Assembly (NCBI RefSeq): GCF_035083965.1
Contig: NC_089732.1
Span: forward strand, 1,594,883-1,658,882
Reading direction: 5' to 3'
Source: Branchiostoma lanceolatum
Taxonomy: Eukaryota; Chordata; Leptocardii; Amphioxiformes; Branchiostomatidae
DNA length: 64,000 nt
Shown here: positions 1 to 33,900 of the stretch, one piece after another
Layout of the letters: every line of letters begins with the position of its first letter
Numbering within the stretch: position 1 is the stretch's first letter
Translations under genes and position numbers: made by a program
The notes under the pieces: generated by a model
Database searches by the model: none
What the model saw: only the letters and a program-made list of their open reading frames with translations
Told to the model about the DNA's origin: nothing

Positions 1-1146
1 TTTGCAGGGTTCAGTATTGATGTACAGGAGCCAGCAGTAGAGAGTCTGCCCTGCTCTGTCACAGTCACAGCCAACAAGGCAGATCTTACAGGTGGGGATG
101 TTGCACCACAGATAGAGGTGACCTCCCCCCAGGGCAAAATCACCCTGATACAGACTACAGCACACACTAGTCCCCCACTAGCTGCAGGGAAGGGATAAAC
201 CAGCAGAGTTAGGAGGGTCTGGGGTGCAGAGTGGAGACCTCAGGAGTCAGGGAAACACACACTGGGGGTCTGTATGGGGGGTAAGAAGGACCTGGGTTCT
301 CTCACTGTAGATGTAGGCAGTAACAACCCTGTACTGAGGTTTGGGCAGATGGGCAGCCAGCAGGAGCAGTTTGATAGGCCTATAGATGTAGCAGTCAGGG
401 GGGACAGGCTGTATGTGGCTGATACTTTCAACCATTGTGTTCAGGTGTTTGATCTGAGTGGGAAGTTTTGTCATTCATTTTCTACAAGCTACCCTGTAGG
501 ACTTGCAGTTCAGACGGATGGCACCATAGTGGTGAATTCTGGGAAGGAAGTGAAGAAATTTTCCCCATCAGGAGAACTGCTGCACAAATTTTCTCTGGGT
601 GAATATTGCACATACCCCTATGGCCTGGCAGTACAGAGGGATGGGGGGGTTGTTGTAGCTGATCCAGACAAACACAGCATCTTCCTGTTTGAGGCAGATG
701 GGACACTGGTGAAACAGGTGGGAGGGAAGGGACAGGGGGAGGGGCAGTTTAACATGCCAGCCTTTGTCTGTGTGGATAAAGGAGACAACATCATTGTGTC
801 AGATAAAGTAAACCACCGTGTTCAGGTGTTTGACAAGAATCTGAACTTCAAACACAAGTTTGGTCAGAATGGCAGACAGCCACAGGACATGATTGGCCCT
901 AATGGGGTGTCAGCTGACAGCAGGGGGAACATAGTTTTGGCAGACATTGGGGATAACTCTGAGGTAGGTGGTGTAGAACATGGCAGGAAGCTTCAGGTGT
1001 TCCGGGCAGATGGAACCTGGTTGTCCACCATCAGCAGTGATGGGGACAAACTGAAGGAACCCCACGGGGTGGCTGTGACAGAGGATGGACATGTGTTTGT
1101 AGCTGATCCTTTTGACCACTGTATCAGGAAGTACAGGTACATGTAA
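1..1146 (+). CDS. Array copy 1: 3' part of a coiled-coil/NHL beta-propeller protein, with in-frame stop
   Basis: The window opens inside the last exon of a paralogue of the four genes downstream. Reading from base 1 gives the family linker, then a propeller of about 290 residues ending at TAA 1144-1146. NHL-type repeats are visible as 'VAD..NH..QVFD' strand motifs separated by GQF..P..V turns. An in-frame TAA lies at 196-198 where copies 2-5 have CAA (Gln, in the GKGQTS linker). Unless this is a sequencing error, the protein would end before the propeller. A Met at 274 (VCMGGKK) could in principle restart it, but that Met is internal in every paralogue. The 5' exons lie outside the window. 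NHL propellers bind protein or RNA ligands in TRIM-family proteins; the ligand here is unknown. Possibly a pseudogene. Confidence 0.75.
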
Positions 1147-3434: not shown

Positions 3435-6400
3435 ATGGCTCTACTTTCCGCCCTTACCCGACTGTATTTCAAGATTCAAGAGAGCTTATCAGAGGAAGAC
3501 GTTAGAAGTCTTCGCACCATGCTTGTGCCTGACATTCTTGGAGCAGCAAGAGTGCAACATGCAACACCTCTTGAAATTTTCAAGATGCTGGAAGCTGACA
3601 AAAAAATTGGCAAAGGAAATCTGGGATTACTTGTGCAGATTTTAAAAACTTTGGGTAAAGGAACATTGGCAGAGGAAGCTGGGCACCTTGACCAACAGCA
3701 GAGGACAGAACCAGGTAATTTTCATAATTCGTAACTTTGGTGCAGCATCATAATAAATGCAGACCCTGTCAATTACATTATATAGCAAGACTGCATGTAT
3801 GACACAAAATTTGGAAAGCTCACGGGACAGCAGTTTTATTTAGTAAACATTTCGACATTTATTTCACTGCTCACAGAAAAAAACTGACAAACGATAACAA
3901 AAGATATCAAGCTATAAGATAGACAACGTGGACTCAGATTAAAGACAAACAAATAACTGATATTAGTAACGAACGCAAAGAAAAAAAGAAACTACGGCAA
4001 GGTGGCATTGTGTTGGGGTGTTTGGCCCAGAACCAAGAGGTCCTGGGTTCGAATCCCCTGACATGCCACTGATCATGATGTTGTGCCCTTGGGGAAGGCT
4101 GCTAGTTCACTCCACCCAGGTGTAAAAATGGGTACCTGCATGACTCTGACCTGGTTGGGGAGATAAAGGCGGTGGAAGGAAAGGGTTGGGCTCCCCTTCC
4201 AATACCGTGCCCTAGACACAGTGGATAACAACCCACTGGCGTACCGCCTCAATAAGGCTATGGGACTACCTTTTAGAGCAAGGTGAAGTTAAATATAAAA
4301 TATAGTTGTGCCATAAACACCTTTTGCTGAAAGCATTAAAAAAAGGAACGGCTGATTGATAATTAACTGACAGGTGTTGGAGACATACTTTAAGTGAAAC
4401 AAAAAGAGCAAAAATGGCAGTAGCTTAATTTAGTGATGTTGTGATTATAAACCACAGCAGCAGCTGGAGCAGTGGCAGCTCCACAGCAGGCAGCCCCCAT
4501 GAGTGAAGCCCATCGCACCCTCCTGCTGAGGAACTACCCAACCATCTACCAGACCTGGATGTCACAAGAGTGCTGGGCTATCTCCATGAGCAGGGTGTGC
4601 TCACAGTAGAGATGAGAGAGGAGATCCTTGCCATCCCAGAGAGGCACCAGAGAACCAGAAGGTTACTGGACATGATCCAACAGATGAGTGACAACGCTTT
4701 CACGACCTTCCGTACAGCCCTGGGGCATGCTGGGTACCGTCATCTCATGGAGCTGCTCACAGATCTAGAGGGACAGCCACAGCTCATGCCACGTAAGTTT
4801 GGGGCTGACTTTGAGCCCAGGAAACATCAATGGGTTTTTTGACGTGTAAAAATGTTAAACCAGGTGCAGTTTTCAAATGAGGATACCGGTAGCTGGATAC
4901 AGTCATAAAGTACAAATTAATGTAAATGACTTTTCTTTCCTTTGGTAAATCTATTGAATCAAAGTATATAATATTTCCTCATCATGACATCCTCCAAGTT
5001 GAAATCTTAATACTACTGAATTTATCTGGATCTGTTTTTCTAACATCATAGACAGTTATCTGATAAATGATCTAAAGTATTAAAGGTGGGGATAAGAGTT
5101 CTCCTATCCCCACTATCTTTCCTAACAGGATCCTATTAGTGTGGATAAATGATTTGAAGTCATTTTGAATCAGTGTCTAATATGATCATGAAATTTGACT
5201 TACAGTTACCAATACCCCATAGGCTCTACCCCAAAAATGGTAGACAGGGATAAAGGAACTCACTATCAAGACTTGAAAATTAAATTGGATACTTTGTTTT
5301 TCAGCAATGCCCATGGCACTGGCTATCTACACTAGTATTGGAACCCAAGGGAGTGAACATGTCCATATGTCCACTGGAGAACAGCCCCATGGCCAGTTAA
5401 CTCTTCAAAATGAACATCTTTTTGCCACAGTATATCAAAAAGAGCAGGCTCGCCAACTAAAGAAGAAAATAAGGGATGAGGAGCTTAAGGAACTTTACAG
5501 GTATCAAAAAAAGCAATTAAAAATAGCACACAAAAAATTGTCCCAAGAAAGTTTTGAGAGAAAGTTTGACCAGCTTCAGGCCCAAGTTGCAGGTGAACGA
5601 GCCATTATTGTGAGTAGGTACAGGGGCTGTGTAATTCTGTTTCTGACATTTGAGTCTGAGCCCAAATTTGAGCATTTCTGGGGTTCCTGCACGAGTGGGG
5701 ATCTCTCCACCACCCTGTCTGAGCTGCTGCTGACTGAGGAGATGCGGGGCCTGGAGGGAGGAGACCATCTGGTGGTGAAGACTCTGGTGCTGGAGCAGGA
5801 CGTCACGGCTTGGAGGGACTTCTTTGGAAATGGTACACCATCATGTCATAGATTTTATATATTATATATTGACACTTTTTTAGGGTGTCATGGTTTTTAC
5901 CCTGGGGAGGGTTTTGATTCAAAGAATGGACCGAGGAAAATGGGCTATAACTTGACAATACAATCACTTTCATCAAGAAGTTTATGTTTTGGGACTGCTG
6001 TATGTTTGTGTGTCTGTTTGCTTGTTTGTTTGTGGGAAGTATAACTCGAGAAGCTCCAGATAGATCTTTGGTAGTTGGGTACTTAGTACAGTTTGGGAAA
6101 ACGAAGGTCAAGTTTGTTTTTATCAATAACATGACAAAGAATATGGTTTTACTGCTTGATATAAAAATCTAACAGTTACTACATAATTTGATCAGGTACA
6201 ATAAAACAGCGAAGTAAACATAAATTTGTACACATTCAATTTTTCACAGGAGACCCACAGCATCCTGACAATGTGCAGGTGGAACAGGTGACGTCACAGC
6301 TGGCCTCACTGGACACTTCCAGACAACCAGCAGAATTACAGGTCAGACAGAAAACATGGACAGGAAGCATCCAATCCATCGCAAGCGTCCAATCAGTAGC

Positions 6401-8834
6401 AAGCACCATATCAGCAGGAAGTGTTCTATCATCGGAATCAGGCTATGCATCAGCTGGGAGCCACATGACCTTGTCTGAAGGTGAAACTTCTCTCTCTACC
6501 CAGACGAGCAATGATCTTTCAGCTTAGTCTTGATATTCACACTTATCATTGTACATTTAAAAATATTTCAATGTGAGAAAATAAGATATTCCTCAGACAT
6601 TCTTTTCTCATTGATTGTACTGATTTGTCTTTAAGAGAATGATGTAATCGGAACATAAAATAAAATTCACTGTTTTCGGTCATTTTTCTACATCATAAGT
6701 TGAATCTACCTTATCACACTGCAAAGCGATATTCATCACGTATGAATGTGACTTTGTAGTGTCCCTCAAACGCCTTGAAAAAAAATATGCGCCATTCCCA
6801 CCGCTGCTTGACTTGTCCGTCATTTTGTGCAATTTTCCGGCTATCCACCGAACACGTGATCAAACATGCGAAGTTCTGAAGTTTGTTCACTTGTGGTGGT
6901 TTTCCTGTGACAATCGATCTCCGACCGCAACAGTCGATTTGGTTATTTCTACTCTGGCCTACTTGAATATCATAAAATGGGGGCCGATAAAAAATATGCA
7001 AATAAACCAGATTTTGCGTGTTTTGCGTTTTCGCCTTTTTTTAATGATGGAAATGTGACAAAATGATAGGCATACAATGTATGCTGGACATAAGTTACAA
7101 ATAAGTAACTATGTGAATCGGAATGTAGATTTTTCAAATTCTGAATGTTTGTAGTTTTTGTCCACCAAATTCTACAATACGTCCTTTAAAACAGCAAAGT
7201 TTGTAACTATGATCCAATTTTTTCCTTTGGTAGGGAGAAAAATTGCAGCAGAGTACAAAGCATCAGTAGATGTGGCTGTGTCTACCATGACCGAGGGAAT
7301 GGAAAACATTGACAGGGAAATCAGAACAACAAAAGAGAATTGTGAGCAGGTAGAGAAGGAAATCCAGCAGCACTACAAACGGCTGAGGACGAAACTAAAG
7401 CAGGAAAAGCAGAAGATGATCACAAGAGTACAGAAGGTCAACAGAGACAGGGAAGGGGAACTGGTTCAGAAGAAGAAGAAAATACAGACAGAGCTTGGAA
7501 AAACCAAAGGAAACGTAATATTCTGTAAAAAGATTTTAGACTGTTTTGATGACACAGAATTTTCCACATTAAGGGAAGAAATGGAGGAAAAGTTCCAGAA
7601 ACTATCCTTGCAGGAAACAGGCAACAGGAGTTTGGAAAGTCATACAAAAGTGACCTTCCAACCCTGTAGCTTATTCCAGGTTTCTGGAGGTTCCTTGTCA
7701 GTGTTCACTATAGATGTACAGGAGCCTGCAATAGAGAGTCTCCCCAGCACTGTGGGACTAACAGGTGGGGATGTTGCACCACAGATAGAGGTGACCTCCC
7801 CTCCTCCCAAATGGTTTCACATAGGCAAAACCACCCTGATACAGACTACACCACACACTAGTCCCCCACTAGCTGCAGGGAAGGGACAAACCAGCAGAGT
7901 TTGGGGGGTCTGGGGTGGAGAATGGAGACCTCAGGAATCAGGGAAACACTCACTGGGGGTCTGTATGGGGGGTAAGAAGAATCTGGGTTCTCTCACTGTA
8001 GATGTGGGCAGTAACAACCCTGTACTGAGGTTTGGGCAGAAGGGCAGCCAGCAGGGGCAGTTTGACACTCCTATAGGTGTAGCAGTCAGGGGGGACAGGC
8101 TGTATGTGGGTGATACTTATAACCGACGTGTTCAGGTGTTTGATCTGAGTGGGAACTTTTGTCACTCACTTCCAGTAAATCCTGGACTTGAAGGACTTTC
8201 AGTTCAGACTGATGGCAGCATAGTGGTTAAATGTGGGAAAGAAGTGAAGAAATTTTCCCCATCAGGAGAACTGCTGCACAAATTTCCTCTGAGTGAATAT
8301 TGCACAGACCCCTATGGCCTGGCAGTACAGAGGGATGGGAGGGTTGTTGTAGCTGATAAAGACAAACAAATCATCTTCCTGTTTGAGGCAGATGGGACAC
8401 TGGTGAAACAGGTGGGAGGGCAGGGACAGGGGGAGGGGCAGTTTAACGAGCCAGGTTTTGTCTGTGTGGATAAAGAAGACAACATCATTGTGGCAGATGA
8501 ACTTAACCACCGTGTTCAGGTGTTTGACAAGAATCTGAACTTCAGACACAAGTTTGGTCAGTGGGGCAGACAGCCACAGGACATGTGGGGCCCTCATGGG
8601 GTGTCAGCTGACAGTAAGGGGAACATAGTTCTGACTAACATTGGAGAGGTATCTGAGGTAGGTGGTGTAGAACATGGCAAGAAGCTTCAGGTGTTCCGTC
8701 CAGACGGCACCTGGGTGGCCACCATAAGCAGTGATGGGGACAAACTTAAGTGGCCCCACGGGGTGGCTGTGACAGAGGACGGACATGTGTTTGTAGCTGG
8801 TGACCACTGTATCAGGAAGTACAGATACATGTAA
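3435..8834 (+). CDS. Array copy 2: DED-CARD-TRADD-N-like-coiled coil-NHL propeller protein, CARD frameshifted
   Basis: Predicted exons: 3435-3714, 4458-4792, 5305-5832, 6250-6480 and 7234-8834, all joined in phase 1 with GT-AG borders. The ATG at 3435 sits in a strong context (caaccATGG) shared by copies 3-5. Exon 1 is a DED (LTRLYFKIQESLSEEDVRSL, then an LF/IFKMLEAD helix and LLVQILKTL). Exon 2 is a CARD (HRTLLLRNYP start, RTRRLLDMI, HLMELL end). Exon 3 is a coiled coil followed by a block like the TRADD-N fold (RGCVILFLTFESEPKFEHFW). Exon 4 is Ser-rich. Exon 5 gives a coiled coil of about 130 residues, a linker and the propeller. The exon-2 frame breaks near 4552, where one G is missing relative to copy 5. 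The exon-4 donor is weak (gtgaaa); unspliced, the frame ends at 6527. Role inferred: death-fold sensor or adaptor. Confidence 0.8.
3994..4275 (+). mobile_element. tRNA-derived SINE (family A) in intron 1 of copy 2
   Basis: The head resembles a tRNA, with an A-box-like GTGGCATTGTG stretch and a near-perfect B box (GGGTTCGAATCCC near 4047). It is followed by the tail core shared with the SINEs at 26751, 43204 and 61000 (TGTGCCCTTGGGGAAGGC, then CCACCCAGGTGTAAAAATGG). It is a transcribed, LINE-dependent repeat type, not a tRNA gene. Confidence 0.75.
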
Positions 8835-11261: not shown

Positions 11262-12350
11262 CTCTGATTAACATGCTAAACCTTTTAGAGTACACTTCAG
11301 GAAAATTAAGGCGTATTATGACAAGGGTCAAAGGTCTCTGCACTACACTGGCAAATAATCATGGCCATTTTGTTGCTCATTAAATGATTCCTGTCTAAAA
11401 TCTATTAATTTAAGAGACATGTTAAGACACCTGACAGCTGCAGCAATTCAAAGTAATGATAACAAATACAAAACAAAAGACTTACTGCATTTCTCAAAAA
11501 TTCTATTCCACTGGCAACTCTCTAAAAAGCGACTCTCATGCACACTATGGTGCTTCTACATGTATATTGTAAACTAAAAAACACATTTAGTCAAGTCATG
11601 TAACAGGTTTACATCTACATGTGTGTAATATAACTTTTTTATTCACTCAATGTAACAACTCTTGGGACAGTTGTGGATGTGGCGCATGAAATTCAGTTTT
11701 TTTGGCTTGACAATGATGTTGAAAATCCGAAAAAAAACTGTACTGCGACTAATGTTGATGCACCTTACACAGTAAAATATTGAGACTATCTTTGACAGTA
11801 GAAGCACTGTGAGTGCCAATTGCAAAGGCTTGGGGGAAAACTGGGATTCCAAACAATGAGAGAGATAGAAAGTAAGCAGCAAGAAAACAAAAACTTTGGA
11901 GGAATTCTGTTTGCTCACCGACAAAACATCAATCCTGGTAGAAATTCTAAGGTCTACGGCAAGGTCAGTAATTAAACTGTAGACATTTATCTCAAACTCT
12001 CTCATTTCTGTTTCCCTCCAGGCACCTGCAAGGAGACACAAACCAACCATGGCTGAACTCTCCCCCCTTACCCGACTGTTCGTCAAGATTTCTGACAGCT
12101 TGTCAGAGGAAGACCTCAGAAATCTGCGGGCAATTCTGGCTCGTGAAGGTCTCGGACGGGGGAAAGTCGAACAAGCGACACCTCACGAGATGTTCAACAT
12201 GCTGGAGGCTGACAACAGGATCGGCAAGGGCAACCTTGGCTTTCTCGTGCAGGTCTTAAGGAGTCTAAAGAAAGGAAAGCTAGCAGAAGAAGCTGAACGG
12301 CTTGAACAAGACCAGAAAAGGGAACTTCAAGGTAGGACTGAATAATCTGT
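11262..12350 (+). repeat. Segmental duplication unit, 5' region of copy 3
   Basis: Near-identical to 18918-20000, covering the putative promoter, 5' leader and DED exon. Differences are few and scattered. Before the ATG, TTTCCCTCCAG followed by GCACCTGCAAGG resembles a splice acceptor, and CTACGGCAAG/gtcagt upstream resembles a donor, so a noncoding first exon with a tiny intron is likely in both copies. The whole 3' flank plus spacer plus DED exon was duplicated as a block of several kilobases. Confidence 0.85.
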
Positions 12351-14271
12351 AACATCATTGTAGAATTTGTATAATAATAACATTATAGTAAGGCAAAGTC
12401 ATTGTTAGTAGTGATATGCTATGAGATGGTGACAGCGTTTAGAGGTATACTCACTATTATACACTTATTACTTTAATTGCTTCCACACAGAGTGCCATAC
12501 TTAAACCTATAAAGGAAGTGTATAAACTACACATCAGCTTATCTTCTTGTGACACCATCATTGGTTTTGTTATTTGAGTGTCTATTGAAGATTTTGTAAT
12601 TATTGTCCATTTTCTCTCACTAAAGGGGGGAAGCTTCATGACCCCAAAGAAGTGGAAAAAGAAGCAGCAAAGTACAAAGCATTGGTTGAAGCAGCCATCT
12701 CCAAGATAACCCAGAAAGTGGAGACCCTAATGAAGGAACTCACAGCCACAGCAGAGAACTGTGAGCAGGTAGAGAAGGAAATCCAGCAGCACTACAAACG
12801 GCTGATCTCCAAACTGCAGCTGGAAGAGCAGGAGATGATCACCAGGGTACAGAAGGTCAACAGGGACAGGGGAGGGGAGCTCACTCTGGAGAAAGAAAAG
12901 TTTGAGATGGAATTGGGAAAGACCAAAGAAGCAGAGATTTTTGTTCATAAGATGTTAGACTGTAAGGATTACACAGAAGCTTTGGTATTGAGGCAAGACA
13001 TGGAAGAAAGGTTTAACAAACTCTCCTTGCAGGAAACAGATAACAGTAGTGGGGAAGGCCCTACAAAAGTGATCATTCAACCCTGCAGCTTATCCAAGGT
13101 TTCTGGGGGTTCCTTGTCAGTGTTTGCAGGGTTCAGTATTGATGTACAGGAGCCAGCAGTAGAGAGTCTGCCCTGCTCTGTCACAGTCACAACCAACAAG
13201 GCAGATCTTACAGGTGGGGATGTTGCACCGCAGATAGAGGTGACCTCCCCCCAGGGCAAAACCACCTTGATACAGACTACACCACACACTAGTCCCCCAC
13301 TAGCTGCAGGGAAGGGACAAACTAGCAGACTTAGGAGGGTCTGGGGTGCAGAGTGGAGACCTCAGACTTCAGAGAAACACACACTGGGGGTCTGTATGGG
13401 GGGTAAGAAGGACCTGGGCTCTCTCACTGTAGATGTGGGCAGTAACAACCCTGTACTGAGGTTTGGGCAAAAGGGCAGCCAGCAGGGGCAGTTTGACATG
13501 CCTATAGATGTAGCAGTTAGGGGGGACAGGCTGTATGTGGCTGATACATTCAACAAATGTGTTCAGGTGTTTGATGTGAGTGGGAAGTTTTGCTCCTCAT
13601 TTTCAGTCGATCCTGGTCCTGTAGGACTCACAGTTCAGACTGATGGCACCATAGTGGTGACATCTGGATATGAAGTGAAGAAATTTTCCCCATCAGGAGA
13701 ACTGCTGCACAAATTTCCTCTGGGTGAATATTGTCCAAAGCCCTATGGCCTGGCAGTACAGAGGGATGGGAGGGTTGTTGTAGCTGATCCAGACAAACAC
13801 AGCATCTTCCTGTTTGAGGCAGATGGGACACTGGTGAAACAGGTGGGAGGGAAGGGACAGGGGGAGGGGCAGTTTAACGTGCAAGCTTTTGTCTGTGTGG
13901 ATAAAGAAGACAACATCATTGTGGCAGATAAAGACAACAAACGTGTTCAGGTGTTTGACAAGAATTTGAACTTTCAACACAAGTTTGGTCAGATGGGCAC
14001 ACAGCCACAGGACATGTGGGGTCCTCTTGGGGTGTCAGCTGACAGCAGGGGGAACATAGTTCTGGTAAATGGAGGCGATGACTCTGGTGTAGCTGGTGTA
14101 GAACATGGCAAGAAGCTTCAGGTGTTCCGCCCAGATGGCACCTGGTTGGCCACCATTAGCAGTGATGGGGACAAACTGAACTGGCCCTGTGGGGTGGCTG
14201 TGACAGAGGATGGACATGTGTTTGTAGCTGATGTTGATGACCACTGTATCAGGAAGTACAGATACATGTAA
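12049..14271 (+). CDS. Array copy 3: DED-coiled coil-NHL propeller protein
   Basis: Two exons, 12049-12331 and 12653-14271, joined in phase 1 across a 321-bp intron; the open frame gives about 634 residues. Exon 1 encodes a DED: LTRLFVKISDSLSEEDLRNL (helices 1-2), HEMFNMLEADNRIGKGNLGF and LVQVLRSL (later helices). The usual C-terminal RxDL motif of DEDs reads KGKL here. Exon 2 starts with a coiled coil of about 130 residues (HYKRLISKLQLEEQEMITRV), then a linker with LTGGDVAPQIEVTS and an NHL-type propeller ending in HCIRKYRYM. The CARD, TRADD-N-like and Ser-rich exons of copies 2 and 5 are absent. No frame damage is seen. Family role is inferred: the DED would recruit death-fold partners and the propeller would bind a ligand. 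Cytoplasmic, since there is no signal peptide or membrane segment. Confidence 0.85.
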
Positions 14272-15540: not shown

Positions 15541-16818
15541 ATAAACTACGCACAAAAAGTTCGGAAACTTAACTTTGGTCGATCATATTTCCGTCATTTT
15601 TTTTACCGATTTCAATATATTACATATCATTTAAAAGCCTATTTGATTTCCTTTCCCATGATACCAAACGTATTGTGATTGCAAGTTCATGAAACGAGCA
15701 TAAGGCCTGCTAAAGTGAGTGGGTCGAAGAAATAAAGTGCCCAGATTACCTTACTATAGTCAAACAGGCTATTCCGTACATATTCTTCTGTTGATATTGA
15801 CTTCTGTACGAGAGTATTGTGAAAAATCAACAAGAATAAACAAGACATATTCATGAAAGCTAAGTTTATTCTTTATCAAAACCAACAATCTGTGTCTTAG
15901 TAACGGGTTAGTAAGGAGTCTTAGTAACGGGTGATCCAGCCACGCGCTGTCACTACAGCACGGCACCTACTCCTTATACTCGTCACCAGCGCGCAATGCG
16001 ATGCTGTGGGATAGCGTCCCATTAATATTCCTCCACCAGCAGTCGTCCTAGGTCAGCCACCGTGTCTTGCACGGACAGCTCGCCCAAGCTGCTCCCATAG
16101 ATGTTCGATGGGTTTCAGGTCCGGGCTCTTAGAGGGCCACTCCATCCTCTCTACACCTGCATGCTGGAGATGGTCGGCGATGATCCCTGCCCGGTGTGGG
16201 CGGGCGTTATCATCTTGCAGCAAGGCATTCGGCCCCATGTTATGGAGGAATGGGATGGCCACCGGATCAAGTAATGTGTCACGATATCTTTCTGCATTGA
16301 GGGTTCCTGGTACAAGTCTTGTCTTTCCCCTGGAGTTTATGCCTCCCCATACCCCAATGTTTGTTGTGAAACAATAACAAAAAATAACACCTGTGGATGA
16401 CGATACCGTTGCAGGACGCAGGTGTTTATGTGGTGTAAACAATTGGTTCTTCGATGTGCTAAAAATAACCTTGGATGTTCTGTGTGCTAGAAATAACCTT
16501 GAATGGTCTGTGTTCTAAAAAATAACCTTAGAACCTGAGGAAACAATATATTGAATCATCATCCGCGCCCATACCGATAGGATGTCACAGCGCGCGTATG
16601 ACACCAACAGGGAATTTTGGGCACTTTTTCTCCGGGACCCACTCACGTTATTAGTCCTGGTACTTGTTCCGTGGGTTTTCAATCACAATAAGTTTGGTAT
16701 CATAGAACAGGGAATCACACAAGCTTTATAATGATATATAATGCATCAAAATCTGTAAAAAACAACGAAGATATGATCAACCAAAGTTAAGTTTCCGAAC
16801 TTTTTGTGCGTAGTTTAT
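15541..16818 (-). mobile_element. Tc1/mariner-type DNA transposon, inactive
   Basis: Terminal inverted repeats begin ATAAACTACGCACAAAAAGT at the left end, and the complement occupies about 16772-16818; the first 39 bases match and similarity continues further. An open frame on the - strand (16053-16442) encodes the C-terminal half of a Tc1 transposase: QDDNARPHRA and SPDLKPIEHLWEQLGRAVR supply the last two D/E positions of the DDE triad. Further tail similarity, ending near 15905 (GWITRY), lies in other frames, so the gene is broken. The empty site survives in the paralogous spacer at about 9915-9935. Confidence 0.88.
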
Positions 16819-18917: not shown

Positions 18918-20000
18918 TGATCTCTGATTAACATGCTAAACCTTTTAGAGTACACTTCAGGAAAATTAAGGCGTATTATGACAAGGGTCAAAGGTCTCTG
19001 CACTACACTGGCAAATAATCATGGCCATTTTGTTGCTCATTAAATGATTCCTGTCTAAAATCTATTAATTTAAGAGACATGTTAAGACACCTGACAGCTG
19101 CAGCAATTCAAAGTAATGATAACAAATACAAAACAAAAGACTTACTGCATTTCTCAAAAATTCTATTCCACTGGCAACTCTCTAAAAAGCGACTCTCATG
19201 CACAAAATGGTGCTTCTACATGTATATTGTAAACTAAAAAACACATTTAGTCAAGTCATGTAACAGATTTACATCTGCATGTGTGTCATATAACTTTGTA
19301 TTCACTCAATGTAACAACTCTTGGGACAGTTGTGGATGTGGCGCATGAAAATCAGTTTTTGGCTTCACAATGTTGAAAATCCAAAAAAAATAACTGTACT
19401 GCGAATAATGTAGATGCACCTTACACAGTAAAATATTGAGACTATTTTTGACAGTAGAACACTGTGAGTGCCAATTGCAAAGGCTTGGGGGAAAACTGGG
19501 ATTCCAAACAATGAGAGAGATAGAAAGTAAGCAGCAAGAAAACAAAAACTTTGGAGGAATTCTGTTTGCTCACCGACAAAACATCAATCCTGGTAGAAAT
19601 TCTAAGGTCTACGGCAAGGTCAGTAATTAAACTGTAGACATTTATCTCAAACTCTCTCATTTCTGTTTCCCTCCAGGCACCTGCAAGGAGACACAAACCA
19701 ACCATGGCTGAACTCTCCCCCCTTACCCGACTGTTCGTCAAGATTTCTGACAGCTTGTCAGAAGAAGACCTCAGAAATCTGCGGGCCATTCTGGCTCGAG
19801 AAGGTCTCGGACAGGGGAAAGTCGAACAAGCGACACCTCACAAGATGTTCAACATGCTGGAGGCAGACAACAGGATCGGCAAGGGCAACCTCGGCTTTCT
19901 TGTACAGGTCTTAAGGAGTCTAAAGAAAGGGAAGCTAGCAGAAGAAGCTGAACTGGTCCAGCAGCAGGAAAGGAGGGAAGGTAGGTCTCATATGATCAAT
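18918..20000 (+). repeat. Segmental duplication unit, 5' region of copy 4
   Basis: Near-identical partner of 11262-12350, including the leader with its putative acceptor and the DED exon. It shows the recent origin of copies 3 and 4 by block duplication. Confidence 0.85.
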
Positions 20001-21868
20001 GATAGTAACATCGGTGTAGAATTTGTATATTCAACAATCACTCAGACTGTCGTAGTGATGTGCTGAGCTATAGTGACTATGTTTAGTGTCACTGTTCATA
20101 TTTATCAATATATTATTGGTTACTAACTGCATGAAGTATGCAACAAAAGTGCTAACCATGTGACCTATTTCTTACCTGGCACATCATCATGAATTTTGGT
20201 AGAAACTTCAAGACAAAATTGTCTAATACAGTCCATTTTCTCTTACCTGCATATGACCCTAAATAAGTGGAAAAAGTAGCAGCAAAGTACAAAGCTTCAG
20301 TAGAAGCAGCCATCTCCAAGATCACCCAGAAAGTGGAGACCCTGAGCAGTGAAATCACAGCAACAGCAGAGAACAGTGAGCAGGTGGAGAAGGAAATCCA
20401 GCAGCACTACAAACGGCTGATCTCCAAACTGCAGCTGGAAGAGCAGGAGATGGTCACCAGGGTACAGAGGGTCAACAGGAACAGGGGAGGGGAGCTCAAA
20501 GAAAAGATGGAGACAGAACTGAAAAAGACAAAAGAAGCAGAGATTTCAGTTCAAAAGATGTTAGACTGTAGAGATGACACAGAAGCTTTGATGTTGAGGC
20601 AAGACATAGAAGAAAAGTTTAAGAAACTCTCCTTGCAGGAAACAGACGACAGGAGTTTGGAAGGTCCTACAAAAGTGACCTTCCAACCCTGTAGCTTATC
20701 CCAGGTTTCTGGAGGTTCCTTGTCAGTGTTTGCAGGGTTCAGTATTGATGTACAGGAGCCAGCAGTAGAGAGTCTGCCCTGCTCTGTCACAGTCACAACC
20801 AACAAGGCAGATCTTACAGGTGGGGATGTTGCACCGCAGATAGAGGTGACCTCCCCCCAGGGCAAAACCACCCTGATACAGACAACAGCACACACTAGTC
20901 CCCCACTAGCTGCAGGGAAGGGACAAACCAGCAGAGTTAGGAGGGTCTGGGGTGGAGAATGGAGACCTCAGGAGTCAGGGAAACACTCACTGGGGGTCTG
21001 TATGGGGGGTAAGAAGGACCTGGGTTCTCTTACTGTAGATGTGGGCTGTAACAACCCTGTACTGAGGTTTGGACAGAAGGGCAGCCAGCAGGGGCAGTTT
21101 GACAGGCCTATAGATGTAGCAGTCAGGGGGGACAGGCTGTATGTGGCTGATAATCTTAACCAACGTATTCAGATGTTTGATATGAGTGGTGTGTTTTGCT
21201 CCTCATTTTCCTGGCCTGGCCCTGGATCAGTTGCAGTTCAGACTGATGGCACCATAGTGGTGAGATCTCTGAAGGAAGTGAAGACATTTTCCCCATCAGG
21301 AGAACTGCTACACAAATTTCCTCTGGGTGAATATTGTCCAAAGCCCTATGGCCTGGCAGTACAGAGGGATGGGAGGGTTGTTGTAGCTGATTATGGCAAA
21401 CACAGTATCTTCATGTTTGAGGCAGATGGGACACTGGTGAAACAGGTGGGAGGACAGGGACGGGGGGAGGGGCAGTTTAACCAGCCATATTTTGTCTGTG
21501 TGGATAAAGAAGACAACATCATTGTGTCAGATAAAGACAACGACCGTGTTCAGGTGTTTGACAAGAACCTGAACTTCCAACACAAGTTTGGTCAGAAGAG
21601 CAGACAGCCACAGGACATGTGGGGCCCTAATGGGGTGTCAGCTGACAGTAAGGGGAACATAGTTCTGGTAAACATTGGAGAGGTATCTGAGGTAGGTGGT
21701 GTAGAACATGGCAAGAAGCTTCAGGTGTTCCGTCCAGACGGTACCTGGGTGGCCACCATCAGCAGTGATGGGGACAAACTGAAGAAACCCCACGGGGTGG
21801 CTGTGACAGAGGATGGACATGTGTTTGTAGCTGGTGACCACTGTATCAGGAAGTACAGATACATGTAA
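19704..21868 (+). CDS. Array copy 4: DED-coiled coil-NHL propeller protein
   Basis: Two exons, 19704-19980 and 20268-21868, phase-1 junction (GAA G/TG), giving about 626 residues. The DED differs from copy 3 at only a few residues in its core. Exon 2 gives a coiled coil (KYKASVEAAISKITQKVETL), the linker and the propeller. It is shorter than copy 3 by several codons in the coiled coil (the charged run after NRGGEL) and by two in the last blade (VAGDHC against VADVDDHC). Propeller loop residues differ from copy 3 much more than the framework does, for example DNLNQR against DTFNKC and FSWPGPGS against FSVDPGPV. It has no CARD or TRADD-N-like exon. The frame is intact, with a strong start context and an AATAAA at 22222. 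Confidence 0.85.
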
Positions 21869-23725: not shown

Positions 23726-26700
23726 ATGGCTCAACTTTCAGCCCTTACCCGGCTCTACCACAAGATTTCTGACCACCTGTCGGATGAAGAAGTCAGAAGC
23801 CTAAGAACCATGCTGGTGCCTGACATTTTTGGAGTGGCAAGAGTGCAACATGCGACGGCTCTTGAAATTTTCAAAATGTTACAGGCTGATAACAAGATCG
23901 GCAATGGTAACCTGACGTTACTCGTAGAGATTTTGCAAAGTTTGGGGAAAGGAAAATTGGCAGAGGAAGCTGAACAACTTGAACAAGAGCAGAAGACTGA
24001 AGGTATGTCTGAACAATTTGTAACAGTTACTGAAGATTCTTAAGCAACATGATAAGTAAAGCTCCTTTCACACATAGTGTTTGGCTCATTTGATTCTGAG
24101 GCTTCTAAAATAGCAGGTATTTCCTATAATAGCCCTTCAGTTGTCACATGTGTGTCAGAGACCATTATGAACTTCTGGCGCATTTCAATGTGTGCTTTCA
24201 CATATTAAATGAAATACCATTCTGAATACATCCCCGAGGTGTCAGCTCGACTGGGGGTAGGATTGACCAACGGCCTTTGGTTGCCATGGTTGTATGACTG
24301 TCATAGACAAGTCATATACATGTAGTATGGATTTCTCTGATGTGCATAGCTTCCAGATGGAGTATTCAACAAACAACAAACACTAATTTCCTGAAGCGCT
24401 CATAATTCTATATCACAATCTTGACAGAGTTTTCCAGCTGAACAACGTATTAGCCATTTTGTTGCCATCTATCCATAGCACAAGCAGAAGCAGCAGCCAT
24501 GCATCAGACCAACCCCATGAGTGAAGCCCATCGCACCCTCCTCCTGAGGAACTACCCAACCATCTACCAGGACCTGGATGCCACAAGAGTGCTGGACTAT
24601 CTCCATGAGCACAGAGTGATCACAGAGGAGATGAGACAAGAGATCCTGACCATCCCAGTGGACCAGAGACACCAGAGGACCAGGAGGCTACTTGACATGA
24701 TCCTGCAGAGTGGTGACGATGCTTTCATCACCTTCCGTACAGCCTTGGGGCATGCTGGGTACCTGCATCTCGTGGAGCTGCTCACAGGGGGACAACAGCA
24801 ACTCATGCCACGTAGGTTTGAACACCAGTTAAGGTCACAAGTGTGGCTAGAAACAATGGTACAATTTTCCTTAGCTGAGGGGACATCGAGTTGTCCATTT
24901 CTATCTTGCTCTTCTTTATGTCTTTTTCCTTCCTTAATGATTATAATCCACCAAGATCAAATTCTGTTCATGTTGAATCAGTGTCTCAATTAGTATCATG
25001 AAATTAAATGGTTAACCCTTCATTGTTATCAATGCCCCATATTTGCTATGATGTACTAAACATTTCACTGTGACAATATAGTTAACAGCCTCCTGTTTGA
25101 TTTGGGAATTCCAGGTTCATTTGGGGCTACTATGTAGCAGCCATTGTTGAACCCCTGGGGATTAGCCTGATTCTGGGAACTTGGGCAAAATTCTGAAGAA
25201 TTCTGAGAACGATGCAGAATTCTACAGAATCTACCTTCCAACACATAATATACCTGAGGATTCCAACTTGGTGTTTTCTTCCTACAACTTGGTTTTTTCT
25301 TCTGCACATCATCTCTCTCTTCCTTCATATAGATAAATTCAGAATTCTGGCTCCAGCTGCAGCCTCCAGAATTCTGACCCAGCTTCCAGAATTCTGGCTC
25401 CAGCTCCTAGAATTCTGGCTCCAGCTTCTAGAATTCTGTCTCCAGCTTCCAGAATTCTGGCTCCAGCTTCTAGAATTCTGGCTCCAGCCTCCAGAATTCT
25501 GCCTCCAGCCTCCAGAATTCTGGCTACAGCTTCCAGAATTCTGGCTACAGCTTCTGATTCCAGCTTCCAGAATTCTGGCTCCAGCTCCTAGAATTCTGGC
25601 TCCAGCTTCTAGAATTCTGTCTCCAGCCTCCAGAATTCTGCCTCCAGCCTCCAGAATTCTGGCTACAGCTTCCAGAATTCTGGCTACAGCTTCTGATTCC
25701 AGCTTCCAGAATTCTGGCTCCAGCTCCTAGAATTCTGGCTCCAGCCTCCAGAATTCTGCCTCCAGCCTCCAGAATTCTGCCTCCAGCCTCCAGAATTCTG
25801 CCTCCAGCCCCCATAATTTTGGCTCCAGCTTCCAGAATTCTGTCTCCAGCTTCAAGAATTCTGGCCCTAGCTCCTAGAATTCTGCATAAATGGGTTAATC
25901 CCTATGGGGTCATCAATGGCTGCTACATACATGTATTTTTTTACTTCATTTTCACCTATACTAGATGTTATATGAAGCCATTTTAGTTTAAGATTACTGA
26001 AATTTGGGAGGTAGTCCCAATCTAAACTGGAATTCTCAAATTAAACTACAGGCTTTTAGTTACTTTGTCTTTTTAATTCACAGCAATGCCAATGGCGGTG
26101 GCTATCTACCCTGGCTTTCAAGGGAGTGAATCTCAAAGTTTTGATTTATCCATTGGAGAGCAACCAGAGATAATTCTTCAAAAGCAACTTGATAAGTACA
26201 CCACAGTTTATCAAAACGAGCAGATTCTCCAACTGAAGACTAAAATGAGGGATGAGGAGCTCAAGGCACTTTACATTTACGAAGAAAGAAAAGTTAAGTC
26301 CCTGAAAAGAGCAAAATCCTTTTTGTCACAAAAAAGCTTGAAGAAAAGATTTGATAAGCTACAGGTCAAAGTTGAGGACGAGAGAGCCATCATTGTGAGC
26401 ACATACAGGGGGTGTGTGATTCTGTTTCTGACGTTTGAATCTGAGCCCAAATTTGAGCATTTCTGGGGTTCCTGCACGAGTGGGGATCTCTCCACCAGCC
26501 TGTCTGAGCTGCTGCTGACTGAGGAGATGCGGGGCCTGGAGGGAGGAGACCAGCTGGTGGTGAAGACTCTGGTGCTGGAGCAGGACGTCAGGGCTTGGAG
26601 GGACTTCTTTGGAAATGGTACACATGTCATAGACTTTATATGCTAACTACTATCTAAGAGACTCAGTGTTTCATGTTTTTTTCACCCTGGGAAGGCTTTT

Positions 26701-29691
26701 GATTCTAATGATGGAAGAAGATGGGCAAATTTATAACTCAACAATATTTTTCAAGTGGCGTCGTGTGGCACAACTGTAGAGCACGCGGCTGTCAAACAAT
26801 GGGTCCCGGGATCTAATCCCAGGTGTGCCCAGAGACATGTTCGAACTTGCGCCCCGACGTTGTGCCCTTGGGAAAGGCACTTAACACGACTTTCCTCACT
26901 TCACTCAGGTGTAAATGAGTACCTAGCTCATCTAGGGTTAGGGACGTCCCTCGGATAGGACGTTAAATGGAGGTCCCGTGTTTGGGGAGAGCAACACCCC
27001 GCGCACGTTAAAGAACCCACCACACCTTTCGAAAAAGAGTAGGGGCATGCCCCGGTGTGCGATGGTCAAAATCTTACAGTCCGGTCTGGGATGACATCTT
27101 GAAAAGGTGATAGTTCACCTGTTATGTCAATCCTTCCACAAAATGTGGTAAATCAAAATAAATAAATAAATAAATAAATAAAATAAATAACTACTATCTA
27201 AGAGACTCAGTGTTTCATGTTTTTTTCACCCTGGGAAGGCTTTTGATTCTAATGATGGAAGAAGATGGGCAAATTTATAACTCAACAATATTTTACAGTT
27301 TAGTAAATGTTATAATCAACATCAACAAGAAAGTTATGTTTCTGGCACTGCTTGTTTGTCTAAGTGTGTGTCTCTTTATTTGTGGACAGTATACATTTTG
27401 CAAGTCATGAAGCTGTGCATACGTTGATGCATCCTTGGTAGATGGATACAAGTAGAGTTTGGTTAAACGCAAAGGGCAAGTTTACTTTTATTGACAAGAT
27501 ATGAAAGAATGTGCTTTCACAGCTTTATTAAGTGGAACTACATAGTTTGAAAGATACAACGGATCAGCTAATTCAGGATCAGTGAATGTACATTTTGTAC
27601 AAGTCATGTTAAATTTGTCGCAGGAGACCCACAGCATCCTGACAATGTGCAGGTGGAACAGGTGACATCACAGCTGGCATCACTGGACACTTCCAGACAA
27701 ACAGAGGAATTACAGGTCAGACAGAAGATAAGGGCAGGGAGCATCCGATCCATTGCAAGCACCCAATCAGCAACAAGCACCTTATCGTCAGGAAGTGTTC
27801 TATCATCAGATTCAGGCTACGCATCAGCTGGGAGCCACAGAACATTGTCTGAAGGTGAGTCTTCTAGATCTCTCTCTACCCAGACGAGCAGAGAAGCTTT
27901 CAGCATCACTTGACATTCAAACTTACATATGTAACATAACAGTGATCAAAGAATGTGTGAAAATAATGATCGAGTTCATCTGGATGTGTTTTTCTAATAT
28001 TTTAAAGTATTAAAGGTTCAAACAATACTGAGGCATATTTTTTTACAATGGCCCATTTACTTCCTATGATAGGTAGAAAAATTGCAGCAAAGTACAAGGT
28101 ATCAGTAGAAGCAGCCATCTCTACAATAACCGAGGGAATGGAAAAAGTTGACAGGAAAATCACAGCCACAAAAGAGAACTGTCAGGAAGTAGAGAAGGAA
28201 ATCCAGCAACACTACAAGCGGCTGAGGGCGAAACTAAAGCTGGAAGAGCAGGAGATGATCACCAGGGTACAGAAGGTCAACAGGGACAGGAAAGGGGAGC
28301 TCACTCAGGAGAAAGAAAAGATGGAGACAGAACTGAAAAAGACGAAAGAGGCAGAGATTTCAGTTCAAAAGATATTAGACTGTAAAGATGACACAGAAGC
28401 TCTGATCTTGAGGCAAGACATGGAAGAAAAGTTTAAGAAACTCTCCTTCCAGGAAACAGATGACAGGAGTTTGGAAAGTCCTACAAAAGTGACCTTCCAA
28501 CCCTGTAGCTTATCCCAGGTTTCTGGGGGTTCCTTGTCAGTGTTTGCAGGGTTCAGTATTGATGTAGAAGAGCCAGCAGTAGAGAGTCTGCCCTGCTTTG
28601 TCACAGTCACAACCAACAAGGCAGATCTTACAGGTGGGGATGTTGCACCACAGATAGAGGTGACCTCCCCCCAGGGAAAAACCACCCTGATACACACAAC
28701 AGCACACACTAGTCCCCAACTAGCTGCAGGGAAGGGACAAACCAGCAGAGTTAGGAGGGTCTGGGGTGCAGAGTGGAGACCTCAGACTTCAGGGAAACAC
28801 TCACTGGGGGTCTGTATGGGGGGTAACAAGGACCTGGGTTCTCTCACTGTAGATGTGGGCAGTAACAACCCTGTGCTGAGGTTTGGGCAGAAAGGCAGCC
28901 AGCAGGGGCAGTTTAACAAGCCTTTAGGTGTAGCAGTCAGGGGGGACAGGCTGTATGTGGCTGATAATACTAACCATCGTGTTCAGGTGTTTGATCTGAG
29001 TGGGAACTTTTGTCATACCTTTTCTACTACTAGCCCTGCAGGACTTGCAGTTCAGGCTGATGGCACCATAGTGGTGAAATCTCGGAAAGAAGACTTAGTG
29101 AAGAAATTTTCCCCATCAGGAGAACTGCTCCACAAATTTTCTCTAGGTGAATATTGCACAAACCCCTATAGCCTGGCAGTACAGAGGGATGGGAGGGTTG
29201 TAGTAACCGATACATACAAACACAGCATCTTCCTGGTTGAGGCAGATGGGACACTGGTGAAACAGGTGGGAGGGCAGGGACAGGGGGAGGGGCAGTTTGA
29301 AAGCCCATTATTTGTCTGTGTGGATAAAGAAGACAACATTATTGTGGCAGAGAAAGTCAACCATCGTGTTCAGGTGTTTGACAAGAATCTGAACTTCAAA
29401 CACAAGTTTGGTCAGAAGGGCAGACAGCCACAGGACATGTTTGGCCCTATGGGGGTGTCAGCTGACAGCAGGGGGAACATAGTTCTGGCAAACATTGGGG
29501 GTACAACTGATGGTGTTGTTGGACATAGTAAGAAGCTTCAGGTGTTCTGCCCAGACGGTACCTGGGTGTCCACCATCAGCAGTGATGGGGACAAACTGCA
29601 CAATCCCCTCGGGGTGGCTGTGACAGAGGATGGACATGTGTTTGTAGCTGATCCTGAAGACCACTGTATCAGGAAGTACAGATATTTGTAA
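23726..29691 (+). CDS. Array copy 5: DED-CARD-TRADD-N-like-coiled coil-NHL propeller protein (intact)
   Basis: Exons 23726-24002, 24479-24811, 26084-26617, 27624-27854 and 28073-29691, all phase 1, open throughout (about 998 residues). Order: DED (LTRLYHKISDHLSDEEVRSL); CARD (HRTLLLRNYPTIYQDLDATR, RTRRLLDMI, HLVELL); a charged coiled coil (MRDEELKALYIYEERKVKSL) leading to a TRADD-N-like block (CVILFLTFESEPKFEHFW, ending WRDFFGNG); a Ser-rich linker (SGSVLSSDSGYASAG); a second coiled coil; the family linker; and the NHL propeller ending HCIRKYRYL. DED and CARD each nucleate death-fold assemblies in apoptosis and inflammasome-type signalling; having both in one chain with a propeller suggests a sensor-adaptor. 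If the gtgagt donor at 27855 is skipped, the frame ends at 27911 without the propeller. Function is inferred. Confidence 0.85.
25131..25929. mobile_element. Possible MITE carrying a minisatellite, in intron 2 of copy 5
   Basis: Imperfect inverted repeats of about 33 bp (TATGTAGCAGCCATTG at 25131-25146 and its complement near 25911-25927) bracket the 21-bp minisatellite. Copy 2 lacks all of this in the same intron. The structure suggests a foldback element whose interior expanded as a tandem repeat. I found no clean target duplication. Confidence 0.5.
25339..25885. repeat. 21-bp minisatellite, about 26 units
   Basis: The unit is close to AGAATTCTGGCTCCAGCTTC plus one base, with variants T/G and C/T. 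Most units keep an EcoRI-type GAATTC. A longer-period repeat (about 170 bp, including TTCTGATTCCAGC) is visible twice. Because 21 is a multiple of three, long open frames occur by chance on both strands. Confidence 0.9.
26644..27293 (+). mobile_element. tRNA-derived SINE (family A) flanked by a 107-bp direct repeat
   Basis: The inserted part is about 26751-27186: a tRNA-like head (GTCGTGTGGCACAACTGTAGAGC), a tail core TGTGCCCTTGGGAAAGGCAC, a downstream section with GTTAAAGAACCCACCACAC, and an AAAT-repeat end. The 107 bases before it (26644-26750) are repeated after it (27187-27293). It lies in intron 3 of copy 5; copy 2 has no insertion there. Confidence 0.8.
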
Positions 29692-30980: not shown

Positions 30981-33900
30981 TTTGAAGGCTGAATCCCTCC
31001 CAGGTCCGTGTAGAGCGCTATGAGCGCCGTGATGACGATGGGCTGAGCCATGATCTGGGTGATCGACGGGCGTTTGCTGGGGTCGAGGTGTAGCATGCTG
31101 AGGATGAGGCGGCGCAGGTCCTCGCTGTACCGGTCCGAGATCGGCGCAAACGTGCCGCGCATGATCTTCAGCACCAGCGCTGGCAGGTTCTGGGGGAGGA
31201 AATGACAGATATACATCATGATTTAAACTCTGAACATGTATCAAGCATGTTCTAGACTGTTTACAAGTTAGGGGCCTTCATCATTGTGCATGCACAGTTC
31301 AAACTGTGATCTTATTCTGGTTCATCCATCCAATCCTTTAAGTCTAAATTACAAATCAGGACACATTTAATGCACTGTATGAGCCACTTCATACAATAGT
31401 TTGGAACAATATCTCAGTGACCGGGAATGTATACAAAGCTGGTGTGTTACACGAAGGGACGGTTATACCAGCTGAACAATACTGGTATAATGGATACTCT
31501 AACAGACATTTACAGATAGTTTAGAACAACGCTGGAGTTAGATACATGTATACAGGGTTCAGAAATTACAAGTCACTTGATGTACCAAATCAGACAACCC
31601 TGATTGTCTACAAAGCAGGTGGTTACCGGCTGAACAGTACATGTACAGAATCTGATTCAGATACTCCAGGGTTTCATCTAAATTGGGAAAGAGGGGCGCT
31701 GCACCCTCTTGTTTCAGCCCAGCACCCCCTTGTCGAATTCAGATTTTAGCTTAATATCCAGCATACAGACTTCCCTCAGCAATTGATTCTTCCATAAATA
31801 CATAGAATTTTGCTCCCTCGCCTGTCTGTGCTGCCTCTTGTTTAATTTTTCTAGAAAAATCCCTGTACTCCAAACAGAGACCACACTTACAGCAGCCTCG
31901 AACGCCCTTTTGAGACTGGCCAGTTCATACAGCACACATCCCAGGGCCCAGATGTCACTCTTCTGGTTATATCTGATGGACAAACTTGGTCAAGGAAAAA
32001 ACATGCACTTCTGCAGAAAATCTTAACTTAACTTTGTTATGACTTTTGAGCACATGGTTTAAAGTGACCCTTTTCTCTGGCAGGTCACTAGAACAACAGA
32101 ATGTTTTGCTAAAGAAAACATAAAAACACTTGTATTTTCAAAGCCTGCTGCCTAACTTCCTTGCTGTAACCAATACAAAATATTTAAGCTACACAGCAGC
32201 CTTAGTAAGGGAAATGACTAAGGTATGCAGGTCTGTGGTACAAGTGTGTGAAACAGGTGTGGAAAAAAAGGTGTATGATAGAGGTATGATTGTGTTTCAG
32301 GTGTTTTACAGGTGTGCCATAAGGTGTTATTCTGTAGTTAAAGGATACAGTTCCCCTCACACAGCTCAGCGTGCCCACCACCGTGTAAGCCTTACTCTTA
32401 CTACTGATACAGGTGTGGCATAAGGTGTTCCTCTGTTGTTAAAGGATATGGTTTGCCCTCGCACAGCTCCGGTGAGATGTAACATGGTGTCCCCACTACT
32501 ATACGGTGTATGCCTTACTCTTAGTCTTACTGTTGATACATGTGTGCGACACAGGTGTGTGATACAGGTGTGTGACTACAGGTGTTCTTAAAGGTGTTAT
32601 TCTGTAGTCAAAGGATACGGTTTCCCCTCGCACAGCTCCGGAGAGATATAACACGGAGTCCCCACCACCGTGTAAGCCTTACTCTTACTGCTCAGGATCT
32701 TGGAGATACCGAAGTCTCCGATCTTCACCACGTTCTTCTTCCTGTTCAGCAGGATGTTCTGTGTCTTCAAGTCTCTGTGAGGGAACAGAAAGAAACTCGA
32801 GCATGTTAAAGAACCCACCACACTTATCGATACGAGTAGGTGACATCCTGGTGTGAGTGGATCAAACCTAACACTACAGTCTGGTCTCTGGGTTGACATC
32901 TTGAGAAGGAGGTCTTCAACTGTTATGTCAATCCTTCCACAAGATATGGTCAATTTCAAGAAATAAACAAAATAGAATAAATGACATCCTTATCCTTCTT
33001 CGAGAGGATGACCCTACATTCATTTGAAAACAAGGATGACTGAATACAAAGGAGTCAGTCAAAAGCAAGTAGGCCTTAGTACATACTAACAGTAATATGA
33101 TGATATTAAAGATTCATGATAATGTAAGACAAGGTATGACATCCCTAAATTACAATCTGTCGCAACATGTTGACAATGTGTAGTTTTTATATCCATGTTT
33201 ATCCAATATTACTAAAAACATACTGCATGACGATCCTTGGCAAACACAGTCTAAGTACCTACCTGTGCAGGATCTGTTTGGCGTGAACATGTTGTAATGA
33301 CAGCAACATCTGGACAAAGAACTGTAGAATTTCCTGCAACGAAAAATCAGGGAAAAAAACAGTTTTAATTTTAGATACAGAATCTGATTTAGATCTATTT
33401 CTATTGACATGGTGAGGAATTCGAACTGATTTGAAATTCTAGAAATGACATGTTACCTAAAAAAAGGTACTGCCAGTAAAAACAATAAGCACAGCCCCCT
33501 TCACTTTAACACTTCTTCTTTACTGCTTACTTGTAGCCTCATATAGAATGACATAGCATTTGAAACATAACACTGCATTGTATACAGTACATAATAAAAG
33601 GTAATGAATGACAGTCCAGTTTGTTTCCCTCTCTCCTGCTTGTGGTGGTGCACAACAGAATTTTGTAGGACACACGTACTCTATTGACTGTACATGCATA
33701 TATTGAATGTAACATAAGGAACCCGGGTCACCCTATACACCCTTTACAATTCTACATTTGTACTTCCAACCACATACTAGTTATACCCAATCTGGGTAAT
33801 GTTTCAGGACAGGCTGAAGAAATATGAATGTTAGTAATACTCACCTCTTCATCAAGTAGTGCATTTCCCCTCTGTTGCAGGTATTCAAAAATGGTTCCCC

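Follow-up and report, generated by a model that had tools for sequence, protein, structure and literature searches.

The 64,000-nucleotide window of Branchiostoma lanceolatum DNA analysed here (contig NC_089732.1) carries a cluster of predicted genes in which death-fold domains stand in front of a coiled coil and an NHL β-propeller, and in which variation between the copies is concentrated in a ring of propeller positions equivalent to the RNA contacts of LIN41. We lean, by a little, towards reading this cluster as a diversified family of intracellular recognition proteins with death-fold output, with the propeller as the recognition surface. A more detailed version is offered tentatively, as a proposal that falls somewhat short of an even chance: a conserved NHL frame would carry a ring of about 30 positions, diversified by selection and by exchange between copies, that binds structured RNA or other targets from an invader, the DED and CARD would provide direct output in place of ubiquitin ligation, and symmetrical 1-1 exons would allow short and long front ends at one locus.

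Gene models of the cluster

Copy 5, at 23726-29691, had been outlined in the initial annotation as a five-exon gene; the interval turned out to be exact, and the exon structure holds as a predicted splicing model. Its reading frame runs from an ATG at 23726 to a TAA ending at 29691, and the five exons, with GT and AG ends, join into a single open frame with zero internal stops. The predicted product has 997 or 1016 residues; exon 5 has an alternative phase-compatible acceptor that opens it at 28016. All four introns of the gene model are in phase 1, hence every internal exon is symmetrical 1-1. The copies and the exons of copy 5 are as follows:

1..1146, plus strand: copy 1, 3' part only, filamin-like segment and NHL (translation and similarity), with an in-frame stop
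3435..8834, plus strand: copy 2, long form, exons 3435-3714, 4458-4792, 5305-5832, 6250-6480 and 7234-8834
12049..14271, plus strand: copy 3, short form, intact, 642 residues, DED exon 12049-12331 and coiled coil-NHL exon 12626-14271
19704..21868, plus strand: copy 4, short form, intact, 625 residues, DED exon 19704-19980 and coiled coil-NHL exon 20268-21868
23726..24002, plus strand: copy 5 exon 1, DED (Pfam), ending in phase 1, start codon in CCAACCATGGC context
24479..24811, plus strand: copy 5 exon 2, CARD (Pfam), phase 1-1
26084..26617, plus strand: copy 5 exon 3, a helical stretch and then a probable TRADD-N-like domain (about 26386-26616), phase 1-1
27624..27854, plus strand: copy 5 exon 4, Ser/Gln-rich linker, open frame, phase 1-1
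28073..29691, plus strand: copy 5 exon 5, coiled coil, filamin-like segment and six-bladed NHL propeller (Pfam, PDB)

Of the five tandem copies proposed, the full architecture belongs to copies 2 and 5, the only ones in which the CARD, TRADD-N-like and linker exons find similarity matches. Copies 3 and 4 are two-exon genes of the composition DED-coiled coil-NHL, with the DED predicted to be spliced directly onto exon 5, and copy 1, truncated by the boundary of the window, shows just the part from the filamin-like region onward, interrupted by its stop. Furthermore, the CARD exon of copy 2 (4458-4792) is frameshifted, and this copy is open throughout, as 879 residues, only if that exon is skipped. 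Of the four copies contained in full in the window, three are thus open.

The linker of exon 4 is 83% identical between copies 2 and 5, with a dN/dS of 0.41. Within 27624-27854 copy 5 reads DSGYAS, and copy 2 has ESGYAS at this place. The β-TrCP degron has the form DSGxxS, and we take the resemblance as one that may be due to chance.

Several repeats were noted in and around the cluster. Intron 2 of copy 5 holds a 21-bp minisatellite of 26 copies (window 25356-25884) with open frames on both strands, which is easily taken for coding sequence. In intron 3, direct repeats of 110 bp (26644-26753 and 27188-27297, 99% identical) surround an insertion that ends in an AAAT run and looks SINE-like, but for which the flanking duplication is unusually long. 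A fragment of a DDE_3 transposase lies between copies 3 and 4 (window 16053-16514, minus strand, Pfam 3.9e-09), and a 43-bp minisatellite of 19.9 copies at 91% match occupies window 54462-55323.

One gene or two

The architecture could in principle be a conflation of a DED(-CARD-TRADD-N) gene with a distinct coiled coil-NHL gene that follows it, as in some chimaeric predictions for lancelets. Wrong chimaeric gene models of lancelets are indeed documented in the text available of Banyai and Patthy (PMC4967905), and in copies 2 and 5 the frame is open ahead of the acceptor chosen for exon 5 and includes a Met, so that a separate start is conceivable there. The short-form copies speak against such a separation: the introns between the DED and exon 5 measure just 294 bp in copy 3 and 287 bp in copy 4 and contain neither AATAAA nor ATTAAA, while the first Met of exon 5 is residue 35 and 61, respectively, with none ahead of the coil. 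Moreover, GT and AG are found at 10 of 10 junctions in copies 2-5, the junction phase is 1 throughout copies 3, 4 and 5 and likewise in copy 2 if the frameshifted CARD exon is omitted, and the CCAACCATGGC start context is common to all four DED exons. Since copies 3 and 4 make separate DED and NHL genes unlikely, we set the two-gene reading aside as very improbable and regard a fused DED-NHL product from one gene as likely, as judged from the predicted junctions. The exon symmetry also agrees with the preference for 1-1 exons in lancelet exon shuffling that is described in the accessible text of Huang et al. (PMC4284660).

Domains of the predicted proteins

The DED, CARD and NHL calls, made initially by pattern, were all borne out by HMM search. 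Pfam finds the DED in copy 5 (6.4e-11, 42.8 bits) and in copy 4 (41.1 bits) above the cut-off of 35.9, those of copies 2 and 3 being detected by similarity only; the CARD of copy 5 scores 1.3e-14 and 54.4 bits (cut-off 23.9), and its NHL propeller 1.4e-29 and 101 bits against a cut-off of 20. The best relatives in the PDB are caspase-8 (6.2e-06) and FADD (8.3e-04) for the DED, the CARD of APAF1 (2.5e-07) for the CARD, and the NHL domains of TRIM71, TRIM3 and TRIM2 (best 3.8e-46) for the propeller. No WD40 match was obtained in Pfam at E up to 1, NHL being found instead, and the PDB matches named WD-40, two in one search and one at 7.7e-17 in another, are weaker and rank behind the TRIM NHL domains.

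The DED is under purifying selection, with dN/dS of 0.16-0.23 in 6 of 6 pairs, and that of copy 5 aligns to the DED of DEDD with a z of 5.1. The R-x-D-L motif matters in DED proteins. It is absent from the DEDs of the cluster: in the alignment copy 5 has K-G-K-L opposite R-H-D-L of DEDD, and by eye copy 2 has K-G-T-L, whereas K-G-K-L recurs in copies 3 and 4. Hence, canonical DED assembly is uncertain and an inhibitory or non-canonical role is possible. Amphioxus does have death-fold caspases, among which bbtCaspase-8 is induced by bacteria according to the available text of PMC3196919.

The block in exon 3 that had been called TRADD-N-like fared unevenly. When trimmed, it gave no Pfam match at E up to 10 in copies 2 and 5, in a library that includes both TRADD-N models (PF20694 and PF09034); comparison of exon 3 with human TRADD gave no signal (z -0.17), which led us to discard TRADD as its relative, and BLASTP against DEDD gave zero alignments at E up to 100. 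A profile search of the PDB with exon 3 returned no relative, only one unrelated match at 0.31, hhalign assigned the pair of exon 3 and DEDD a probability of 17%, and the AlphaFold2 model of exon 3, built from two sequences, reached a pLDDT of 41.5 and is too poor to judge an RRM-like fold by. Full local alignment to human DEDD, in contrast, reached a z of 7.3 for copy 5, over 71 residues without a gap, and a z of 8.3 for copy 2, with a single gap; these scores were attained by 0 of 3000 shuffles in either case, and phmmer with the single DEDD sequence gave 5.8e-06; as a yardstick, TRADD against DEDD has a z of 2.6, with 66 of 3000 shuffles. In the uS motif, both copies have G-C opposite G-S of DEDD, and the serine is occasionally cysteine in the TRADD-N superfamily (Kaur et al., PMC8195603, in the text available). 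In DEDD itself, a stretch of which was searched with Pfam, a DED is followed by a TRADD-like_N domain. Weighing these mixed results, we take the block as a probable TRADD-N-like domain.

Two coiled coils had been proposed, of which one is supported. The coil of exon 5 has a heptad signal reached by 25 of 2000 shuffles, with a TRIM_CC score in Pfam of 10.4 bits, below the cut-off of 30. The stretch in exon 3, helical in the low-confidence AlphaFold2 model, has no heptad signal (1506 of 2000 shuffles reach it), and we rejected it as a second coil. Between coil and propeller lies a filamin-like segment (Pfam Filamin 0.0065, 17.7 bits, below the cut-off of 26.9) that has no PDB match at E up to 1.

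The initial annotation was also right that the E3 module is absent. Patterns for RING and B-box, searched in six frames over the whole window, occur nowhere in the cluster, so that we dismissed a hidden RING or B-box, and the death-fold/NHL protein is therefore not a TRIM protein. The sole RING pattern (36835-36954, minus strand) and the sole B-box pattern (36595-36693, minus strand) belong to a neighbouring gene, a canonical TRIM-NHL at window 35289-37011 on the minus strand with RING, B-box and NHL by Pfam. Its NHL region is spread over two overlapping frames, by a frameshift or an intron. Protein kinase exons flank the gene on the same strand, at 32597-32989 and 38012-38269, and it may be nested in an intron of the kinase gene. 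We considered this neighbour as the origin of the cluster and rejected it: its NHL pieces are 25-54% identical to those of the cluster, and the two coils align with a z of 1.31 (226 of 2000 shuffles).

A fast-changing ring on the propeller

The NHL propellers of the five copies change fast at one ring of positions. Of the 278 NHL columns, 31 hold at least three different residues, 25 of them among the 117 top-loop columns versus 6 among the 161 others, the top-loop labels having been assigned manually, on the basis of the strand pattern of NHL, once the variable columns were known. RNA contacts are named for 14 residues of zebrafish LIN41 (PMC5908797, in the text available). Each of the 14 occupies one of five places that recur from blade to blade, namely the two positions preceding a proline, the one following it, and the two that come next after the D of a V-A-D type motif. 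The indexing of these contacts was checked by script on the LIN41 chain, where 14 of 14 letters agree. Transfer of the LIN41 contacts through the alignment, likewise made with the variable columns already known, gives 30 contact-equivalent columns, of which 27 are variable versus 64 of the 248 others (one-sided Fisher 7.0e-12); at least three residues occur in 18 of the 30 versus 13 of the 248 (one-sided Fisher 1.1e-12). This concentration adds evidence to the idea, raised in the initial annotation, of an innate sensor that recognises by its propeller.

Could the variation merely reflect decay of the array, that is, relaxed constraint in what would mostly be pseudogenes? The in-frame stop of copy 1 and the frameshifted CARD exon of copy 2 would fit such a history. 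Yet the frame is intact in three of the four completely covered copies, constraint is evident in the DED (dN/dS 0.16-0.23) and in the bottom loops of the propeller (dN/dS 0.24), and relaxed constraint is not expected to single out contact-equivalent columns. Decay of the array is thus improbable.

It is somewhat easier to imagine that the proteins are real fusions and not pathogen sensors: the propeller would bind host RNAs or proteins, in the manner of TRIM71, Brat or TRIM2/3, on a death-fold scaffold, and the differences between paralogues would reflect a host partner specific to each. The nearest solved relatives are TRIM-NHL propellers, and the upper openings of the NHL domain are strongly divergent among human TRIM-NHL paralogues as well (PMC9634614, in the text available). 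Nonetheless, the ring here is diversified at a low synonymous divergence of the NHL domain (0.13-0.22), and a tandem array with exon exchange and lost or broken exons would suit an immune family better. We regard host binding as unlikely, and continue with the recognition-family reading.

Divergence between copies and tests of selection

Synonymous divergence depends on the domain, with 0.24-1.66 in the DED and 0.19-0.66 in the coiled coil, but 0.06-0.23 in the filamin-like segment and 0.13-0.22 in NHL, and the mosaicism of exon 5 in four copies was attained by 0 of 2000 permutations. Together, these observations indicate that the copies have exchanged sequence, without a clear sign of this within NHL itself: the filamin-like segment plus NHL of five copies gave 100 of 2000 permutations, and NHL alone had no clear mosaic signal with five copies (204 of 2000) or four (107 of 2000). 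In exon 3, synonymous divergence between copy 5 (26084-26617) and copy 2 (5305-5832) is 0.93 over the first 101 columns and 0.14 over the last 77, and for these two copies a boundary of conversion is likely close to where the TRADD-N-like domain begins.

Selection on the propeller was assessed with our own codon model, whose M0 likelihood is the same as that of IQ-TREE (-2338.23), on a comparison of five copies only, one of them with a stop; columns with gaps or the stop of copy 1 were dropped, leaving 272 of the 278 NHL columns, and 248 in the run without columns near gaps. Comparison of M1a with M2a prefers positive selection (2dlnL 63.6), and 9 of 9 sites with a posterior above 0.5 lie in top loops; without columns near gaps, 2dlnL is 50.8 and 14 of 18 sites lie there. 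Gene conversion violates the single-tree assumption of these tests; M2a was preferred on 15 of 15 trees (2dlnL 60.5-81.5). Among the control regions, the DED (p 0.62) and the coiled coil (p 0.13) gave no such preference, the filamin-like segment gave p 0.002 from one site, and the NHL columns outside the top loops p 0.058.

The fitted omega of the selected class, 24, is implausibly high. Under one shared rate, the contact codons have an omega of 4.71; given their own overall rate, it becomes 1.13 and differs significantly neither from the 0.62 of the rest (p 0.075) nor from 1 (p 0.67). Taken over all top-loop columns, omega is 1.04 versus 0.45 elsewhere (p 0.005), which is not above 1. Furthermore, two- or three-base changes make up 104 of 180 differing contact codon pairs versus 81 of 325 elsewhere in NHL, and the synonymous divergence of contact codons (window 28870-29691 in copy 5, and the other NHL copies) is itself raised, to 0.426 (28 differences per 65.7 sites), which is not fully explained. 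As such, the site tests are inflated. Codons flanking the contact codons have an ordinary synonymous divergence (0.088 versus 0.109 for the rest), hence the ring region is not simply hypermutable, and we rejected regional hypermutation as the source of the variation. We read the pattern as repeated hits at selected codons. A rate effect at the level of the codon may also account for it, the own-rate fit showing no significant difference in omega (p 0.075).

Proposed mode of action

We propose that the propeller would act as recognition surface, by a ring at its upper opening that is equivalent to the RNA contacts of LIN41. This ring would be diversified by selection and partly by exchange between copies, with the propeller frame held constant, and may bind a variable target, be it RNA or a molecule from a pathogen. 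Dimers probably form through the TRIM-like coiled coil. Ligand binding would then cluster the N-terminal DED, together with the CARD in the long form, and the clustered domains may recruit caspase-8-, FADD- or APAF1-type partners by homotypic contact. Coupling to caspase or NF-kB assemblies, as put forward in the initial annotation, may be the outcome. The TRADD-N-like domain would connect the signalling half with the sensing half or act as a switch between them; it stands between a constant and a variable half, a place in which TRADD-N is viewed as a switch in the available text of Kaur et al. (PMC8195603).

Most of what is known of NHL propellers concerns the binding of RNA or protein in development. 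This role is consistent with the text available of PMC5908797. If our proposal is true, it would extend NHL from development to recognition of non-self. The fast-evolving contact ring names the positions to mutate, and the cluster offers a concrete, testable case of the assembly of immune receptors driven by exon phase in an animal.

Relation to known systems

To our knowledge, DEDD contains no CARD, coiled coil or propeller. Its DED is followed by a TRADD-like_N domain, as the DED of the long form is by a probable one, and both exon 3 (by full local alignment, not by BLASTP) and the DED of the cluster align with it. With the TRIM-NHL proteins (TRIM2, TRIM3, TRIM71/LIN41, Brat) the cluster has in common the six-bladed NHL propeller and, less surely, the coiled coil and the filamin-like segment, but its proteins are without RING or B-box pattern and carry death-fold domains in front. 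Apaf-1 likewise combines a CARD with a β-propeller, and APAF1 is the nearest PDB relative of the CARD found here; the exons of the cluster, however, give no NB-ARC match in Pfam, and NHL takes the place of WD40. In the amphioxus hybrid immune genes (Zhang et al. 2008, PMC2575513), sensor domains are likewise fused to DED or CARD, whereas the partners named in the text available are NACHT, LRR and TIR, and neither "propeller" nor "nhl" occurs in that text. A search of the open-licence literature found no paper on an NHL domain together with a death effector domain.

The closest precedent makes the description as an unrecognised class of sensor too strong, as the design is already known in part. 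According to the available text of Kaur et al. 2021 (PMC8195603), Branchiostoma has 13-129 DED-TRADD-N-linker-WD40 proteins, placed in the NCOA6 clade, whose propellers are reported to diversify by recombination, and fusions of TRADD-N of the DEDD2 clade to TRIM domains are in print there as well; "NHL" has 0 occurrences in the main text as available. The NCOA6-clade proteins, as described there, share with the cluster an N-terminal DED, a TRADD-N-like domain (in the cluster a probable one), a low-complexity linker, a C-terminal β-propeller and lineage-specific copies. Here, in contrast, an NHL propeller preceded by a coiled coil takes the place of WD40, the long form adds a CARD, and the short form is without TRADD-N; the block in exon 3 was compared with DEDD and TRADD only. 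Given these precedents, the combination of NHL, coiled coil and CARD is a variant of a known design, and the cluster is best read as a variant of the lancelet DED-TRADD-N-propeller proteins, built on a TRIM-NHL-like C-terminus.
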